From: Prochlorococcus sp. MIT 0701
GTDB taxonomy: Bacteria > Cyanobacteriota > Cyanobacteriia > PCC-6307 > Cyanobiaceae
Assembly: GCF_000760295.1 (NCBI RefSeq)
Contig: NZ_JNBA01000011.1
Location: forward strand, 1 to 54,088
Reading direction: 5' to 3'
DNA length: 54,088 nt
A program made the position numbers and the translations under genes. The notes beneath the pieces are model-generated. The model did not search any database and was not told the DNA's origin. It saw only the letters and a list, made by a program, of their open reading frames with translations. This document shows, piece by piece, positions 1 through 5,786 of this stretch. Each line of letters opens with the position of its first letter. Positions within the stretch are counted from its first letter, which is position 1.

Positions 1-12
1 GGCAGCTGATGT

Positions 13-80
13 CGACATTTTTTCTGGTTGCAGGAATTGGCTTTTCTGAAGTCACATTGCTTGCTTGATACAGTGTTTAA
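13..80 (-). pseudogene. Possible RAYT 3'-end relic upstream of cassette 1
   Basis: This stretch weakly matches, by eye, the relics further down the array: a TCTGG block, then ATTGGCTTTTCTGAA, then TCACATTGC. It lies about 60-130 bp before the first CACCAG site, the same slot as the relics before cassettes 4 and 5. It is too decayed to translate, so this is a tentative call by position and partial similarity. Confidence 0.3.
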
Positions 81-140
81 ATTGCTTGTAAGGGATTGAT
101 CTAGTTGTGAGAGGCGCTGCAGGGGAAGTGCTAAGTGCTT

Positions 141-202
141 CACCAGCTTTTCACCAGTAACCCCTGCTCTCTCCACCAGAAAGAAATAGGAGTTTTCACC
201 AG
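141..202 (+). promoter_or_regulatory. Phased CACCAG quartet, cassette 1 (type B)
   Basis: CACCAG begins at 141, 152, 174 and 197, giving spacings of 11, 22 and 23 bp, close to whole helical turns. The last site is 78 bp before the start codon at 275. The same spacing precedes all five cassettes. I infer a tandem operator or activator site. The binding protein is unknown. Confidence 0.7.
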
Positions 203-274
203 AAAGTCTGAGATCTTGTAGGAGTCGAGGGAAAACAACCCAACACAATTCACACACTTATCACCTTTAAAACA

Positions 275-562
275 ATGACTACTTTCAACACTGACTACAA
301 CAACACTGAACTGCTCGATCAAGAGCTGACTACTAGTCAATTAATCGCTATTGCTGGTGGTTTACCCAATTTGGGCAATCAAATTTACCCTGAAGGATAT
401 GACGGTCCTAGATTTTCTGATAGCCCTGCTGAAGCTGCTAGAAGAGCAGGCAAGCCAAACACCATTGCAGAGGTGCACGAGGCTACCCTGGGGAACCTAC
501 CAACTCCACAAAATGCAGCAATCAAAGGGGTTAGAACTATTCTGAAAATATTCGGACTTTGA
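275..562 (+). CDS. Double-glycine leader peptide precursor, cassette 1
   Basis: A 95-residue precursor. Residues 1-29 form the shared leader (MT-x-FNTDYNNTELLDQEL, then a variable stretch ending AIAGG). Hydrophobic residues L18, L23 and I26 lie at -12, -7 and -4 from the Gly-Gly cut, the pattern read by C39-peptidase ABC exporters. The 66-residue core has no Cys, has Pro/Gly/Tyr in its first third, and carries a basic, possibly helical end (KGVRTILKIF). By family analogy it is an exported RiPP- or bacteriocin-like peptide, and no activity is shown. No Shine-Dalgarno sequence precedes the ATG. The 5' leader from 232 to 274 contains no G. The gene has its own terminator, so it is probably monocistronic. 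Confidence 0.8.
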   Translation: MTTFNTDYNNTELLDQELTTSQLIAIAGGLPNLGNQIYPEGYDGPRFSDSPAEAARRAGKPNTIAEVHEATLGNLPTPQNAAIKGVRTILKIFGL

Positions 563-621
563 GCAAAACTTAATCCTAAGCTACTTGCCTCTTGTTAATT
601 CCATATGCTCCTATCAACAGA

Positions 622-648
622 AAGCCCCGCACTAACTCGGGGCTTTTT
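622..648 (+). terminator. Intrinsic terminator of cassette 1
   Basis: The inverted repeat AGCCCCG/CGGGGCT (623-629 with 638-644) and a following T run form a standard rho-independent terminator 60 bp after the stop codon. Confidence 0.85.
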
Positions 649-715
649 ATTGCTTCGATCACTGCCTAATCACGCCTAAACATCATCTGATACCTGGCAC
701 TAATTAATACTGAGT

Positions 716-739
716 CCTGCCACGAGCGGGGTTTTTTAT
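716..739 (+). terminator. Orphan terminator, likely remnant of a lost cassette
   Basis: CCTGC-CACGA-GCGGG followed by six T's forms a stem with one G-U pair. It resembles the cassette 2 terminator at 1184-1206 but has no gene in front of it. The sequence after it matches the sequence after the cassette 2 terminator. A deleted cassette is the simplest reading. Confidence 0.5.
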
Positions 740-785
740 TGGCTGTGGTGACCACTTCCAGGCTTTGACTGGGATCGGAGCGGTT

Positions 786-847
786 CACCAGAAGCTCACC
801 AGAAGTATTCCGGCGCTTCACCAGAGCTATGTAGTGGGGTTCACCAG
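786..847 (+). promoter_or_regulatory. Phased CACCAG quartet, cassette 2 (type A)
   Basis: CACCAG begins at 786, 797, 819 and 842 (spacings 11, 22, 23), and the last site is 78 bp from the start codon at 920. The filler between sites differs from the type B regions of cassettes 1, 4 and 5, but the spacing is the same. Confidence 0.7.
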
Positions 848-919
848 AAAGGCTGAGATCTTGTAGGAGTCGAGGGAAAATAACCCAACACAACTCACAC
901 ACTTATCACCTTTAAAACA

Positions 920-1096
920 ATGACTACTTTCAACACTGACTACAACAACACTGAACTGCTCGATCAAGAGCTGACTGATGACCAATTGGAACTTGTTGCA
1001 GGCGGCAGCGTGATTATGCCTCCAATGCTTCGGCTGCCAGGTGGTATCTACAACTACTACCCAAAGCCTGATGTGAATCGTGCCATTAGTATCTGA
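920..1096 (+). CDS. Double-glycine leader peptide precursor, cassette 2 (58 aa)
   Basis: This 58-codon gene is short enough to be missed by common ORF length cut-offs. The leader is residues 1-29, ending DDQLELVAGG, with L18, L23 and V26 at -12, -7 and -4. The core is 29 residues, runs from SVIMPP to VNRAISI, is rich in Pro and Tyr, and has no Cys or acidic cluster. The 5' leader is almost identical to those of the other four cassettes, and a strong terminator follows at 1184. The leader identity makes the gene call firm. The role as an exported peptide is inferred from the leader type. Confidence 0.8.
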   Translation: MTTFNTDYNNTELLDQELTDDQLELVAGGSVIMPPMLRLPGGIYNYYPKPDVNRAISI

Positions 1097-1183
1097 CCGA
1101 CTGGACACCCCAATTAGTAGGCCTGGAGAAAGCAGAGTAAAGACAACATAGTCAGGGACTGGATCACTTAAGGCCCCACAACG

Positions 1184-1206
1184 CCCCGCCATGAGCGGGG
1201 TTTTTT
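1184..1206 (+). terminator. Intrinsic terminator of cassette 2
   Basis: CCCCGC-CATGA-GCGGGG followed by six T's lies 88 bp after the stop codon. Confidence 0.85.
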
Positions 1207-1255
1207 CATGTCTGTGGTGTCTGCACTTCATCCTCTTACAAGGATCTGAGCGGTT

Positions 1256-1317
1256 CACCAGAAGCTCACCAATACCTCTTGGGGTCTACACCAGAGCTGT
1301 GTAGTGGAGATCACCAG
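1256..1317 (+). promoter_or_regulatory. Phased CACCAG quartet, cassette 3 (type A)
   Basis: Sites begin at 1256, 1267 (CACCAA variant), 1289 and 1312, with the same 11-22-23 spacing. The last site is 77 bp from the start, because the 5' leader is one base shorter than in the other cassettes. Confidence 0.65.
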
Positions 1318-1388
1318 AAAGGCTGAGATCTTGTAGGAGTCGAGGGAAACAACCCAACACAACTCACACACTTATCACCTTTAAAACA

Positions 1389-1625
1389 ATGACTGATTTC
1401 AACACTGACTACAACAACACTGAACTGCTCGATCAAGAGCTGACTACTACAGAACTATCAGAAGTATCTGGTGGGCTTGGTGGTGACACCATCAATCCCG
1501 ACCTGGATCCTGGGTTTGGTGGCATGCCCGCCGGTATTATCTTCTATCCCATAGCAAGAGCAGCGATTGACCTTTTTTTTCCTCAGCTATTAGACTCGGC
1601 AACTTCCGATGATGTAGCTCTTTAG
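1389..1625 (+). CDS. Double-glycine leader peptide precursor, cassette 3
   Basis: A 78-residue precursor with the shared 29-residue leader ending TELSEVSGG (L18, L23, V26). The 49-residue core begins LGGDTINPD and is Gly/Pro/Asp-rich. It then has a hydrophobic stretch (GIIFYPIARAAIDLFF) that could be a membrane-active helix, and an acidic tail. There is no Cys, so a lanthipeptide is unlikely. The gene has its own promoter region and terminator. Export by a C39-type transporter is inferred. No transporter lies in the window. Confidence 0.8.
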   Translation: MTDFNTDYNNTELLDQELTTTELSEVSGGLGGDTINPDLDPGFGGMPAGIIFYPIARAAIDLFFPQLLDSATSDDVAL

Positions 1626-1718
1626 TCCGATTCGATCTAGGTCTGTGATCAGCCTGAACCTTTAACTCCTTTCTCAAAACAGGCGCCCTCTTTTGAGTTG
1701 AGTTGTTGGTGAACCCCG

Positions 1719-1743
1719 AGCCCCGCCATTGTGCGGGGCTTTT
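1719..1743 (+). terminator. Intrinsic terminator of cassette 3
   Basis: AGCCCCGC-CATTGT-GCGGGGCT followed by T's. The loop and stem are shared with the cassette 5 terminator. Confidence 0.8.
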
Positions 1744-1931
1744 AAATGCCTAAAGCCATCCAATACCTGACTCCTTCTTGACTTTATCTGCATAAATACG
1801 TATGCACTAGATCAGAGTAAAACTGTTGCTATTTCTTTGAGACTAAAAAAATAGGATACATCCATTAGCCCCTTGACTTCTTTTGAATCCTCAACTAACC
1901 CATCAGAGAACCCATCAGAAGCGGAACTCAC
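1744..1931. other. Spacer with RAYT-flank motif, no gene seen
   Basis: No credible ORF. It contains CAATACCTGACT at 1761. Related sequences (AATACCTGGCACT and variants) lie at 688, 3299 and 4838. The motif sits about 160-180 bp from the 3' end of the next RAYT copy here, at 3299 and at 4838, so it may mark one edge of a transposase-derived segment. Confidence 0.4.
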
Positions 1932-2010
1932 ATCACCATCTCTGATTCCATTTGCCCTACGGAGCCTGACTGCAAATTGATTGCACTCTACTGGAGTCTG
2001 ATTCAGCCTT
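1932..2010 (-). pseudogene. Relic of RAYT transposase 3' end, before cassette 4
   Basis: Read on the minus strand, this translates as RLNQTPVECNQFAVRLRR followed by ANGIRDGD. It aligns without gaps to the C-terminal part of the intact RAYT at 5001-5786 (RLNQIPEDWQQVAVRFRR, then ANGIRDGD), with 19 of 26 residues identical by my count. The frame breaks just upstream of RLN. The rest of the gene is absent, and the cassette 4 CACCAG sites begin about 60 bp away. Confidence 0.75.
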
Positions 2011-2072
2011 AGATCCCCATCTCAACTCCAGGTAGTAGCAAAAACTTGTCGAGAAGGTTGATCTGAGCTTTT

Positions 2073-2134
2073 CACCAGCTTTTCACCAACAACCCCTGCT
2101 CTCTCCACCAGAAAGAAATAGGAGTTTTCACCAG
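2073..2134 (+). promoter_or_regulatory. Phased CACCAG quartet, cassette 4 (type B)
   Basis: Sites begin at 2073, 2084 (CACCAA variant), 2106 and 2129, with the same 11-22-23 spacing. The last site is 78 bp from the start at 2207. Confidence 0.7.
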
Positions 2135-2206
2135 AAATGCTGAGATCTTGTAGGAGTCGAGGGAAAACAACCCAACACAACTCACACACTTATCACCTTT
2201 AAAACA

Positions 2207-2398
2207 ATGACTGGTTTCAACACTGACTACAACAACACTGAACTGCTCGACCAAGAGCTGATTCATGAAGATCTATCAGCTTTGTCTGGTGGGTTACTTC
2301 CTATTGGGCCGGGGGATTTCAATGTAGATCCATTTCCATTTAAATACTTGTACCGAGCATTAGGGATCGATCCACAAGATCCGCTTGGCCTAAAATAG
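2207..2398 (+). CDS. Double-glycine leader peptide precursor, cassette 4
   Basis: A 63-residue precursor. The leader is residues 1-29, ending HEDLSALSGG (L18, L23, L26). It differs from the others mainly in IHED in place of the usual TT-x-x. The 34-residue core begins LLPIGPGDF, contains the aromatic segment PFPFKYLYRAL, and ends with DP repeats and GLK. It has no Cys or Thr. The flanking DNA is the first copy of a 750-bp-spaced direct repeat, which points to recent duplication. Function is inferred from the leader only. Confidence 0.8.
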   Translation: MTGFNTDYNNTELLDQELIHEDLSALSGGLLPIGPGDFNVDPFPFKYLYRALGIDPQDPLGLK

Positions 2399-2458
2399 TG
2401 CTCCGGGCCATACAGAGTTATGGTTTAAAGTGAGATCATCTAACCAGCGTCTCCATCG

Positions 2459-2485
2459 ATCCCTTCCAATAGGAGGGGATTTTTG
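2459..2485 (+). terminator. Intrinsic terminator of cassette 4
   Basis: ATCCCTTCC-AATA-GGAGGGGAT (one G-U pair) followed by TTTTG. The stem sequence is unlike those of the other cassette terminators. Confidence 0.75.
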
Positions 2486-2681
2486 TTTGCATACAATCTA
2501 AATCGCTTGGAAAAATTACAGACAATTGGCGCCTTGTTTCCGAAGAGATGGTCAGGTAGGAGTGTCATTTATCAAACGCAAGTTTGAAGTATCTGCTAGA
2601 CAAGTAAATTACAGCTGCCAACTTCTTGGCTCTAGTTAATACCTGTATCTCCTCGGCTATTCATCAAATATTGTGCGAGAG

Positions 2682-2760
2682 ATCACCATCTCTGATTCCA
2701 TTTGCCCTACGGAGCCTGACTGCAAATTGATTGCACTCTACTGGAGTCTGATTCAGCCTT
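2682..2760 (-). pseudogene. Relic of RAYT transposase 3' end, before cassette 5
   Basis: Identical by eye to the relic at 1932-2010, as part of the same duplicated block. It encodes the same RAYT-like C-terminal segment on the minus strand, ending ANGIRDGD, with nothing of the rest of the gene. Confidence 0.75.
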
Positions 2761-2822
2761 TGGACCTAATCTCAACTCCAGGTAGTAGCAAAAACTCGTC
2801 GAGAAGGTGGATCTTAGCTTTT

Positions 2823-2884
2823 CACCAGCTTTTCACCAGTAACCCCTGCTCTCTCCACCAGAAAGAAATAGGAGTTTTCACCAG
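2823..2884 (+). promoter_or_regulatory. Phased CACCAG quartet, cassette 5 (type B)
   Basis: CACCAG begins at 2823, 2834, 2856 and 2879 (spacings 11, 22, 23), and the last site is 78 bp from the start at 2957. Confidence 0.7.
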
Positions 2885-2956
2885 AAATGCTGAGATCTTG
2901 TAGGAGTCGAGGGAAAACAACCCAACACAACTCACACACTTATCACCTTTAAAACA

Positions 2957-3217
2957 ATGACTGGTTTCAACACTGACTACAACAACACTGAACTGCTCGA
3001 TCAAGAGCTGACTACTGCAGAGCTGACACGATTTTCTGGTGGCATGCTTAGCGAATTTCACAACATGAGTGAGGACAGGCGTTTGGAAATTTCACAATAT
3101 CCAAAGGAAGCATGGGATGCGGCCAAAAGAGTTGATTCGTGGAGGGGCTTAGGACGAGAGTTTGGATTTTTTGAAGGGCAGCAAGTGCAATTAGGCCCGC
3201 TCACACTTACATTCTAA
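2957..3217 (+). CDS. Double-glycine leader peptide precursor, cassette 5
   Basis: An 86-residue precursor. The leader is residues 1-29, ending AELTRFSGG (L18, L23, F26). The 57-residue core begins MLSEFHNMSEDRR. It is highly charged and probably helical in its first two thirds (EISQYPKEAWDAAKRVDSW), then has a Gly/Phe segment and the hydrophobic end PLTLTF. It has no Cys. This core is far more polar than those of cassettes 2-4, which shows how widely the cores differ behind one leader. A terminator follows within 15 bp of the stop. Confidence 0.8.
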   Translation: MTGFNTDYNNTELLDQELTTAELTRFSGGMLSEFHNMSEDRRLEISQYPKEAWDAAKRVDSWRGLGREFGFFEGQQVQLGPLTLTF

Positions 3218-3231
3218 TTGAATTAATGTCG

Positions 3232-3255
3232 AACCCCGCCATTGTGCGGGGTTTT
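3232..3255 (+). terminator. Intrinsic terminator of cassette 5
   Basis: AACCCCGC-CATTGT-GCGGGGTT followed by T's, 14 bp after the stop. It is the same stem family as the cassette 3 terminator. Confidence 0.85.
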
Positions 3256-3460
3256 CAATTGCCTATTGATACGCTTAGAACCTTCCCCAAAAGCCACCCG
3301 ATGCCTGGCCCTGCATTGTAAATAAGAGGCCTGTAAAGACGTGTGATTGATAGAAGCAAATGCTTCCTATGGTCCCTGGAAACTGCAAATCCAACCATCA
3401 ACTGTCCGTCTCTAGCTAATATCCTTACCTCTGTCACTAATCATCAGCAGCGGAATTGAC

Positions 3461-3577
3461 ATCACCATCTCTGGATCTATTCGCTTTTCTAAATCTCACT
3501 GCAACTTGATGCCACTCTTCTGGTATTTAATTGAGGCGAACATCCCAATCCCACGGCAATCGTTGTTGGCCTGGTGA
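3461..3577 (-). pseudogene. Third RAYT 3'-end relic, with in-frame stop
   Basis: The minus strand reads SPGQQRLPWDWDVRLN, a TAA stop, then IPEEWHQVAVRFRKANRSRD and GD. This aligns to SPGQQKLPFAFDIRLN, then QIPEDWQQVAVRFRRANGIR and DGD in the intact RAYT at 5001-5786. It is the longest relic and differs from the two earlier ones, so it comes from a separate copy. It lies just upstream of the beta-barrel gene at 3663. Confidence 0.75.
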
Positions 3578-3662
3578 GATCGATTGCTGCAGTTGATGTG
3601 GCCTAGTGGCTGAAACCAAAAATAGCCGAGATCATGAGTGAACTTTTAAGCGTTCAATCCCA

Positions 3663-4772
3663 GTGCAGCGTTCGATTCGTCTCTCCTTATCGCTCACTGG
3701 TGCTGCTGCACTAGCTCTAGCCAACACTCCTATCCAACCAGTCGCGGCTCAAGACAACGGCAGTGCAGCAGATCTCGGCGTGATGGAGATCAACCTCAAA
3801 GATGCTGTGCGCTTCAACTGGGGTTTTCAAGGTGCCTTGCAAGGAGCAGGCACACCAAACCAGGCAGGTATTGGTGGGTTCTTGCCAATCGCTGTTGGCG
3901 AGAACAGTGTGTTCTTTGCTGATGTACTGCTCAATGCCAACTTTGCTGATTACGACGGCTACAGCAGCATCATCAATACAGAGGTTGCTGGTACCACCAT
4001 CTCCACCTCAACCAGGATTGGTTACCGCTGGCTGAACGGTGATCGCAGCTGGATGTATGGAGTGAATGCTGGCTATGACAGCCGGCCAATGAATACAGGC
4101 AATGCTGATTCAGGTGTCACCCTCTACGACAAGGAAAGTGCCTTCTTCCAGCAGATCGCAGCAGGTCTAGAAGCTGTATCGGATACCTGGAACTTCAATG
4201 CCTATGCCTTAATTCCTGTTGGTGATACAGAGCAACGCCTCAATGTGCGTTATCTCGGTGGGGCGCTTGATACCTATGGCCTGGATGTTGGTTATTTCAT
4301 CACCCCTGCTCTTAATGCTTCTGTTGGTTATTACTACCAGCAAGGTGATCTGGATGATGCTGATGGTTCTGGCGTGCAGGTGGAGCTGGATTATCAGATC
4401 GCTGATGGTTTAACTGCTGGTGTCAATGTTTCCTATGACGAAGTCTTTGAAACCAGAGTTTCAGGCAACATCAGCTATCGCTTTGGTAGCAATAGTACAG
4501 CTGCAGAAACGAAGAAAAAAGCATGGCAAAAGCCAACGATTCAAGCCTTATCTGAAAGCGTTAAAAACAGGAATATCCGCGTTCATGATGGGATCCATGG
4601 CACTTCCTTGACGAAGTGCAAGCTATTTGATCCGCGCAATGGCCACTTCCTTAAGTCCGTCTCCCCGACCTTCCACCACGCGACCATTCCAACCACCTCC
4701 CCCGTTCGTTACTACCTTCATTGTAACCCTGGCGCGCCCAAAGCAACTCCGGCCGGCTGGGAACCCGCTTAA
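3663..4772 (+). CDS. Outer-membrane beta-barrel protein (inverse-autotransporter-like barrel)
   Basis: A 369-residue protein from a GTG start. Residues 1-29 look like a signal peptide ending PVAAQ. Residues of about 45-280 are alternating amphipathic strands with the motifs IGYRWLNGDRSWMYGVNAGYD and GLEAVSDTWNFNAYALIPVGD. They resemble the barrel domain of intimin/invasin-type inverse autotransporters and related cyanobacterial proteins, and end in a strand closing with YRFG. After a short linker (NIRVHD) the last 60 or so residues look like translated non-coding DNA: Pro/His/Cys-rich with no strand pattern. A frameshift or lost stop near 4590 is possible. It would act in the outer membrane. 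Its cargo or ligand is unknown. A RAYT relic lies just upstream and an intact RAYT just downstream. Confidence 0.65.
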   Translation: MQRSIRLSLSLTGAAALALANTPIQPVAAQDNGSAADLGVMEINLKDAVRFNWGFQGALQGAGTPNQAGIGGFLPIAVGENSVFFADVLLNANFADYDGYSSIINTEVAGTTISTSTRIGYRWLNGDRSWMYGVNAGYDSRPMNTGNADSGVTLYDKESAFFQQIAAGLEAVSDTWNFNAYALIPVGDTEQRLNVRYLGGALDTYGLDVGYFITPALNASVGYYYQQGDLDDADGSGVQVELDYQIADGLTAGVNVSYDEVFETRVSGNISYRFGSNSTAAETKKKAWQKPTIQALSESVKNRNIRVHDGIHGTSLTKCKLFDPRNGHFLKSVSPTFHHATIPTTSPVRYYLHCNPGAPKATPAGWEPA

Positions 4773-5000: not shown

Positions 5001-5786
5001 TTATGAAAGCAGTATTCTTGTGTCACCATCGCGGATGCCATTCGCTCTTCTAAATCTCACCGCAACTTGCTGCCAATCTTCTGGGATTTGATTGAGTCTG
5101 ATGTCAAAGGCAAAGGGTAATTTCTGTTGTCCTGGTGATACTCGGTTCTTTTTGCTTTGTCTGCCTCTGCCCTTCTCTACTAATCGTTTCAGCATCCTTG
5201 AGCCCCAATGGCACCTTGAGCCGCTTTTGCTTTGGTGCCGGTAGTTCTGGCAAAACCATGCATACCGTTTGGAGCAGCCTTTCAGGCTTGATGCCAGCTG
5301 CAGAAAGCTGGGGTGCCACTCACTAATGCCATCACATTCCAACCTGCCGTAATGCCCGTAATTGGAATAGGGATCATAAAACCCTTTCCTGATTCCTGCT
5401 GCCTTTGGGTTGGCGTGGATGTAGCGCAAGGTATTCAGCACTCGTCTGTGATCTTTTGGAGCAATTGCAGTGGCGTAATACCTAGCCTCCCAAAAATGTC
5501 CGCAACGACCAGAAAGACGATTAAGTGCCATCGCTGAATACCAGCCAATCCAATGCATCAATTTCGGCAGCTCACTTGCATCATCAGGACGCAGCAGCAA
5601 GTGCAGGTGGTTGGCCATCAGGCACACCGCATACAAGCGATGAGGAACCTTCTGCTTGGCTTTAGCAAGCACAGCTAGCAGCACATCTCGCCTAAGGGCT
5701 TTAGCAATCAGAACCTGACGGCTATTGCATCTGAGCGTGATGTGAAAGGAGTGGCCTGCTGGCAGTAAGCGTTTGGCTCGAGCCAT
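5001..5786 (-). CDS. REP-associated tyrosine transposase (RAYT, Y1/HUH family)
   Basis: A 261-residue single-strand transposase of the IS200-like superfamily. The HUH pair is at H60 and H62 in MANHLHLLLRP. The likely catalytic tyrosine is Y122 in LRYIHANPKAAG, the conserved helix of the family. The start region (LLPAGHSFHITLRCNSR) is typical. The basic C-terminal extension, from about residue 185, is the part found as relics at 1932, 2682 and 3461. The gene stands alone, without TnpB or IS ends. In other bacteria RAYTs mobilise or maintain REP hairpins. Whether it acts on the peptide array here is inference. The catalytic residues look intact. Confidence 0.9.
   Translation of the reverse strand: MARAKRLLPAGHSFHITLRCNSRQVLIAKALRRDVLLAVLAKAKQKVPHRLYAVCLMANHLHLLLRPDDASELPKLMHWIGWYSAMALNRLSGRCGHFWEARYYATAIAPKDHRRVLNTLRYIHANPKAAGIRKGFYDPYSNYGHYGRLECDGISEWHPSFLQLASSLKGCSKRYAWFCQNYRHQSKSGSRCHWGSRMLKRLVEKGRGRQSKKNRVSPGQQKLPFAFDIRLNQIPEDWQQVAVRFRRANGIRDGDTRILLS

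Follow-up and report, generated by a model that had tools for sequence, protein, structure and literature searches.

Picocyanobacteria are among the most abundant photosynthesisers, and some of them make dozens of prochlorosins along with other secreted peptides. Prochlorosins and synechococsins join a conserved leader to a highly variable core, occur in many copies per picocyanobacterial genome, are cleaved at a double glycine (GG), and have IS200-type transposases reported near their genes (PMC10783134). The EbfG1-4/PteB system of Synechococcus elongatus comprises small GG proteins that depend on a C39 peptidase transporter for efficient secretion and whose demonstrated role is biofilm formation, not killing (PMC4997328). 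Microcin PDI is a secreted peptide under EnvZ/OmpR control, with several binding sites for this OmpR-family regulator (PMC5311971), and group V in the cyanobacterial bacteriocin survey of Wang et al. (2011), which sought precursors around transporters, combines a C39-domain ATP-binding cassette (ABC) protein, a peptidase-less second ABC protein, and HlyD (PMC3140520). Here, we describe an array of five GG precursor genes in Prochlorococcus sp. MIT 0701 (genome handle G000; 2.59 Mb in 53 contigs), located in a window of 54,088 bp that is the start of contig C11 (C-numbers denote contigs of this genome, and G-numbers denote genomes). Variable-core GG precursors are already known; the organisation described below was not found in the literature we compared. 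The array resembles the prochlorosins in the respects just listed, but its leader is short (29 amino acids) and without a Nif11 domain, the cores of the family mostly lack cysteine, and no modifying enzyme is tied to it. Whereas the EbfG genes form one four-gene operon beside their transporter (the two systems being compared by description), those of MIT 0701 are dispersed single-gene units, scattered instead of lying around a transporter, and whereas microcin PDI is a single E. coli system, MIT 0701 has about 20 units on one promoter design.

Sequence comparisons make it likely, in our view, that the five genes belong to a larger set of secreted peptides that is scattered through the genome, regulated together, and subject to shuffling of leaders and cores; in MIT 0701, this repertoire has about 20 units, or cassettes. 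All five lie on the forward strand, at 275-562 (95 amino acids; core of 66), 920-1096 (58; core of 29, an apparent chimaera), 1389-1625 (78; core of 49), 2207-2398 (63; core of 34), and 2957-3217 (86; core of 57), and all five share the leader MTxFNTDYNNTELLDQEL-x9-GG. Its first 18 codons are invariant at 51 of 54 nucleotides across the genes, including 17 of 18 third positions; positions -12 and -7 are Leu throughout, and position -4 is Ile, Val, Val, Leu, and Phe in genes 1 to 5. The cores have no mutual similarity and contain no Cys. A first-pass annotation made from the letters alone had described one leader, hydrophobic residues at -12, -7, and -4 before GG, and unrelated cores of these very lengths, and all of this was borne out; its remark that the cores lack Cys holds for the five window genes and fails genome-wide, where 7 of 20 cassettes encode Cys in the core. 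The repeated block begins at the promoter (about 139, 784, 1253, 2071, and 2821), and when the cassettes of the genome are aligned, column identity drops to background right after the GG codons. A 29-bp piece of leader DNA finds 20 matches in the genome at up to 3 mismatches against none for its reversed control, which therefore excludes chance as the source of the shared leader. None of the five precursors matches an NCBIfam or Pfam model above its cut-off, and the leader string did not turn up in the open literature that was searched.

The left edge of the array is a contig end, and the array is not isolated. A leader search of MIT 0701 returned 25 matches, 20 of them strong. The leader occurs about 15 further times beyond the array, on contigs C1, C7, C18, C22, C23, C37, C40, and C45, with additional truncated or diverged copies; because many cassettes sit near contig ends, the count is a lower bound. 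The leader is also present in four other picocyanobacterial genomes, namely G270 (13 copies), G168 (Synechococcus sp. UW105), G259, and G276, while G071 and G120 gave weak matches only; a scan of genome contigs returned two loci only, both from Synechococcus sp. UW105. Leader homologues, which the first-pass annotation had proposed to look for, thus exist both elsewhere in MIT 0701 and in relatives, and its view of an expanding, diversifying family gains support from the cassette copies in several genomes and from the cores shared across leader classes (below). At C1:53049-53296 (L107), a further leader and the beginning of its core overlap the tail of a cassette in a different reading frame and have no promoter of their own, an arrangement that looks like a snapshot of unit duplication. 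On C18 (L110:515), one leader shows a small expansion in which an SNTEY stretch is repeated in frame (MTTINTDYSNTEYSNTEYSNTELLDQEL). A phage origin of the cassettes was set aside, with no match to phage DNA and no confirmed viral contig.

Every gene of the array is preceded by four direct-repeat CACCA boxes spaced 11, 22, and 23 bp from start to start, at 141-201, 786-846, 1256-1316, 2073-2133, and 2823-2883 on the forward strand, and the same arrangement precedes nearly all cassettes in two genera. The last box lies 72-82 nucleotides 5' of the ATG in most cassettes, followed by a conserved start/5' untranslated region block TCACCAGAAgGGCTGtGAtCTTGAAGGAGTCGAGGG. G-run and C-run arms of a putative hairpin in the 5' untranslated region are frequent and of variable length. 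Across 103 sites, information content is about 1.7-2 bits at the box positions and about 0.1-0.8 bits in part of the stretch that separates boxes 2 and 3. The exact pattern occurs at 118 sites in 15 of 400 genomes of the family and its reversed form at none, with about 1e-6 sites expected per genome from base composition; since the site in G082 is single and odd, we judged it a chance match, which leaves 117 sites in 14 genomes, hereafter called promoter-positive. In eight genomes, 74 of 92 short closed open reading frames (ORFs) 3' of the promoter encode a GG motif; among random ORFs drawn from the fetched loci, the share is 11.5%.

These targets belong to at least four leader classes: that of the window, MTxLNTQAQIIELTDDQLE...GG, MTTQTFDAQTINEDDLE...GG, and, in G276 and G294, a Nif11/prochlorosin type. 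Most targets without GG look, by eye, exported in other ways, with Sec-type N-termini or, in MIT 0701, as a subtilase-like protein of 555 amino acids, and no housekeeping-like gene was seen in the promoter-target lists. In related genomes, the same predicted promoter precedes GG precursors of several leader classes, Nif11/prochlorosins among them, and some apparently Sec-exported, subtilase-like, and other proteins. Some distant relatives of the leader have a second promoter type upstream (L053, L054, L057, and L101 at about 4865), which carries a palindrome like TGTGAGCNNNCTCACA that is reminiscent of CRP-family sites.

A C39 transporter was the export route foreseen by the first-pass annotation, and the genome encodes three C39-domain proteins, on C36, C2, and C20. 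The one on C36 is a full-length NHLM exporter (TIGR03796, 1036.9 bits against a cut-off of 853.3) within a set of peptidase-ABC, second ABC (637 bits, below the cut-off of 709), and HlyD proteins, the composition of group V of Wang et al. At E <= 1e-100, relatives of this protein are present in 12 of the 14 promoter-positive genomes and in 38 of 386 others; within genus g34, the C36-type exporter is found in 10 of 12 promoter-positive genomes versus 6 of 19 (p=0.009). The leader residues at -4, -7, and -12 are those held in the groove of the C39 protease LahT150 in complex with a leader (PMC6363468). Given this match and the occurrence of the exporter, it is likely that the cassette cores are exported and cleaved after GG by a C39 exporter, with the NHLM-type protein on C36 as the likely processor, and the description of the genes as GG precursors suited to C39 export fits all five. 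We did not favour the C2 system as the exporter, since other leader-bearing genomes have no close relative of its C39 protein, close relatives being confined to G252 and G282. The C2 region (L099:2369-14598) encodes tryptophan-halogenase-like, TolC-like, HlyD-like, C39-ABC, second ABC, and cupin-like proteins and is possibly a second biosynthetic and export locus. The contig end of C36 carries a truncated cassette, and next to it, at C36:366-728 and about 11 kb from the gene for the NHLM exporter, lies a Nif11 (prochlorosin-like) precursor.

The GG leaders and the C39 exporter would also suit an arsenal of bacteriocins or microcins whose cores kill competing picocyanobacteria and diversify in an arms race, and we regard this as possible but doubtful. 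Among the cores are hydrophobic, GxxxG-rich ones that resemble two-peptide bacteriocins (L102, L097, L091), and microcin PDI sets a precedent for control by an OmpR-family regulator. Most cores, however, are polar and unlike one another, and no bacteriocin family scores above its cut-off: the class II models PF10439 and TIGR01847 reach 14.6 against 27.1 and 14.8 against 15.7 bits, for gene 3 only, and the CTB family bacteriocin model NF038167 matches one leader end weakly (17.7 bits against 32), around the GG motif only. The window cassettes are, moreover, single genes with their own promoters, with no immunity gene beside any of them and no consistent companion ORF between them, judged from the ORF list only; this lack of adjacent immunity genes disfavours a simple bacteriocin array. 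Since the C39-exported EbfG proteins serve biofilm formation, a community or surface role is conceivable; antagonism, signalling, or surface or matrix functions may each apply, and a mixed set is quite possible.

An 11-bp period is typical of PhoB-like tandem sites. The phasing of the boxes at about 11 bp suggests an OmpR/PhoB-type regulator bound head-to-tail, as PhoB-like proteins are at tandem half-sites (PMC4660055). We scanned for proteins with a Trans_reg_C domain, built a tree, and searched across the genomes of the family; among the genomes compared in the tree and the regulators listed, one PhoB-like response-regulator clade was confined to promoter-positive genomes. This clade occurs in 15 of 362 genomes, separated from its next relatives by a clear score gap (314 versus 266 bits). 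Of the promoter-positive genomes, 11 of 14 have it, as do 4 of the 348 negative ones (p = 1.6e-15, kinship ignored); within genus g34, the figures are 9 of 12 and 2 of 19 (p = 4.6e-4, kinship again ignored), on the assumption that the 362 genomes searched for the regulator are a subset of the 400 searched for the promoter, as the identical handles of the listed genomes indicate. In G270, G276, G294, and G316, about 0.3 kb separates the regulator gene from a four-box promoter, and in G221 six consecutive 11-bp units, five beginning with CACCA and one with CACCC, occur close to the regulator gene, ahead of a gene that encodes an RTX-type repeat protein.

In MIT 0701, the regulator (C23:3602-4288; Response_reg and Trans_reg_C domains) scores 208.4 bits against the PhoB model TIGR02154, below the cut-off of 296.2. 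Its gene is divergent from those of a PhnD-like lipoprotein (PF12974) and a HAMP/HisKA/HATPase sensor kinase (C23:631-2100). Window positions 1-327 overlap positions 1-327 of C23 in reverse complement over 327 bp at 99.7% identity, that is, with one mismatch, and the overlap includes about 139 bp of flanking sequence that is not part of the repeat. The simplest reading of this dovetail is that C23 and C11 are neighbours, which would place the array directly downstream of the kinase. Phased direct repeats, together with a co-occurring REC/Trans_reg_C regulator, suggest a predicted OmpR/PhoB-type regulon. In one further genome, G029 (2,410,873 bp in a single contig), the exporter is conserved at 97% identity, but the searches found neither a promoter site nor a member of the regulator clade nor a strong match to the leader.

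Several observations weigh against this reading of a co-regulated, exported repertoire. The genome associations carry no phylogenetic correction, the NHLM exporter is also present in many genomes that lack the promoter, and the correspondence between promoter and regulator is imperfect in both directions: G245, G306, and G311 have 1-3 promoter sites each without a regulator of the clade, and G024, G097, G221, and G331 have the regulator without the exact promoter. The regulator is not beside the kinase and lipoprotein pair in G155, G168, G259, G318, and G331, a dovetail with one mismatch could also join two copies of a larger repeat, and a few MIT 0701 cassettes lack an ATG or show partial duplication (C1:53049). 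The three promoter-positive genomes without the regulator and the neglect of phylogeny would fit an alternative in which another protein, such as a global regulator, binds the CACCA boxes and the two-component genes are merely linked by lineage. We find this unlikely, as the association persists within one genus, four genomes have the regulator gene next to a promoter and a fifth has it near six tandem 11-mers that resemble the box, and the phasing is consistent with head-to-tail binding by a PhoB-like protein.

The repertoire appears to vary by exchange between leaders and cores. When cores were compared between leader classes, 15 pairs reached E <= 1e-3, against 0-1 in 20 shuffles, and 5 of the 15 involve the leader class of the window. 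The core of gene 2, MPPMLRLPGGIYNYYPKPDVNR, corresponds to MPPMLRLPGGIYNFYPRRQVNR in G168 (81.8% identity over 22 amino acids, E 1.55e-18), where it stands behind the leader MTELNTQAQITELTDEQLELVEGG. The two genes hardly differ in DNA over the initial portion of the core, and the N-terminal halves of their leaders align poorly; the segment that ends at the cleavage site (TDDQLELVAGG or TDEQLELVEGG) goes together with the core, which probably places the join within the leader. Another cross-class case connects a Cys-containing MIT 0701 core (C23:35440) with G276. Within MIT 0701, window positions 1596-2303 match the end of C23 at 86% over 710 bp, and such long similar blocks end within about 10 nucleotides of the GG codons, as would follow if promoter and leader were copied and the core differed. 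Related cores recurring under different leader classes are best explained by recombination between tag and payload. A core shared by G000 and G270 has a ratio of non-synonymous to synonymous substitution rates (dN/dS) of 0.10, which indicates purifying selection; one other pair gave a dN/dS of 4.1 with 1 synonymous change only, and we do not claim positive selection on cores.

Pieces of one IS200-like (Y1) transposase gene accompany the cassettes. In the window, its 3' remnants lie in spacers at 1929-2015 (tblastn, residues 228-256, E 2e-7), 2682-2759, and 3458-3619 (both tblastn), and a full-length Y1_Tnp transposase of the same family lies at 5001-5786 (PF01797, E 1.1e-13; also by tblastn), all on the reverse strand. 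Such a piece is found within 1.5 kb of 10 of 20 MIT 0701 cassettes versus 0 of 1166 background points. Several remnants start at about residue 225-230 beside the promoter and thus look carried along, and we propose that these pieces may have moved with the copied block; the element is not claimed as the mechanism that drives the spread.

Taken with the partial duplication, the lost start codons, and the many cassettes at contig ends, these pieces might be read as signs of decay, in which a mobile or recombinogenic promoter-leader block stands before "cores" that are random downstream sequence. This is improbable: the majority of reading frames are uninterrupted, cores that recur are conserved across genera with few replacements (the low dN/dS being that of one core), cores are shared under different leaders, and box spacing is maintained while part of the spacers drifts. 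It is very improbable that the cassettes encode substrates of a LanM/ProcM-like synthetase, that is, prochlorosin relatives with an altered leader, for although C7, a contig that begins with one cassette, encodes a LanC-like domain in a frame of 1092 amino acids (C7:6478-7515), the leader end ELxxVxGG resembles that of Nif11 leaders, and Nif11 genes share the promoter in relatives, no Nif11 domain was found in the array precursors (no Pfam match; TIGR03798 at 12.1 bits against 32.3 in one of the five), and 13 of 20 MIT 0701 cores lack the Cys required for lanthionine. The first-pass verdict of "not prochlorosin-like" accordingly stands for leader and chemistry (no Nif11, no Cys) but not for regulation and mode of evolution.

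In the preferred reading of a shuffled and co-regulated repertoire, each unit is one gene under its own predicted promoter. The PhoB-like regulator, with the sensor kinase and PhnD-like lipoprotein apparently adjoining the array, would bind the boxes and switch the whole set on, and the C39 exporter would cut after GG and secrete the cores. New units would arise when the promoter and leader block is copied and joined to another core by recombination near the conserved leader end, with an IS200-like transposase remnant nearby in half of the copied-block cases. Whether all these parts form one combinatorial, switchable secretome, in which a dedicated sensing circuit of lipoprotein, kinase, and regulator acts on four-box promoters to release recombined leader/core peptides, with prochlorosins co-regulated in relatives, seems to us evenly balanced. 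The first-pass annotation was right in outline and overlooked the phased promoter, the apparently neighbouring candidate regulator system, and the exchange of cores between leader classes. The shared promoter and candidate regulator offer a way in, as identification of the sensor's signal could allow the whole set to be switched on and studied, and leader/core exchange between classes, if true, would be a second evolutionary route to peptide libraries besides point diversification.

Terminator-like hairpins of repeat family D4 lie 3' of four of the five window cassettes on the forward strand: at 621-656 (gene 1, a GC hairpin with a T-run also evident in the sequence), 1179-1214 (gene 2), 1717-1752 (gene 3), and 3230-3265 (gene 5). 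An Rfam scan of window positions 1-4000 returned nothing but sub-threshold isrJ matches that end on these hairpins. Right after the array, positions 3663-4772 encode a protein with a signal-peptide-like N-terminus and no Pfam match, and C23, too, encodes a very similar stretch (AETKKKAWQKPTIQAL) close to the regulator.

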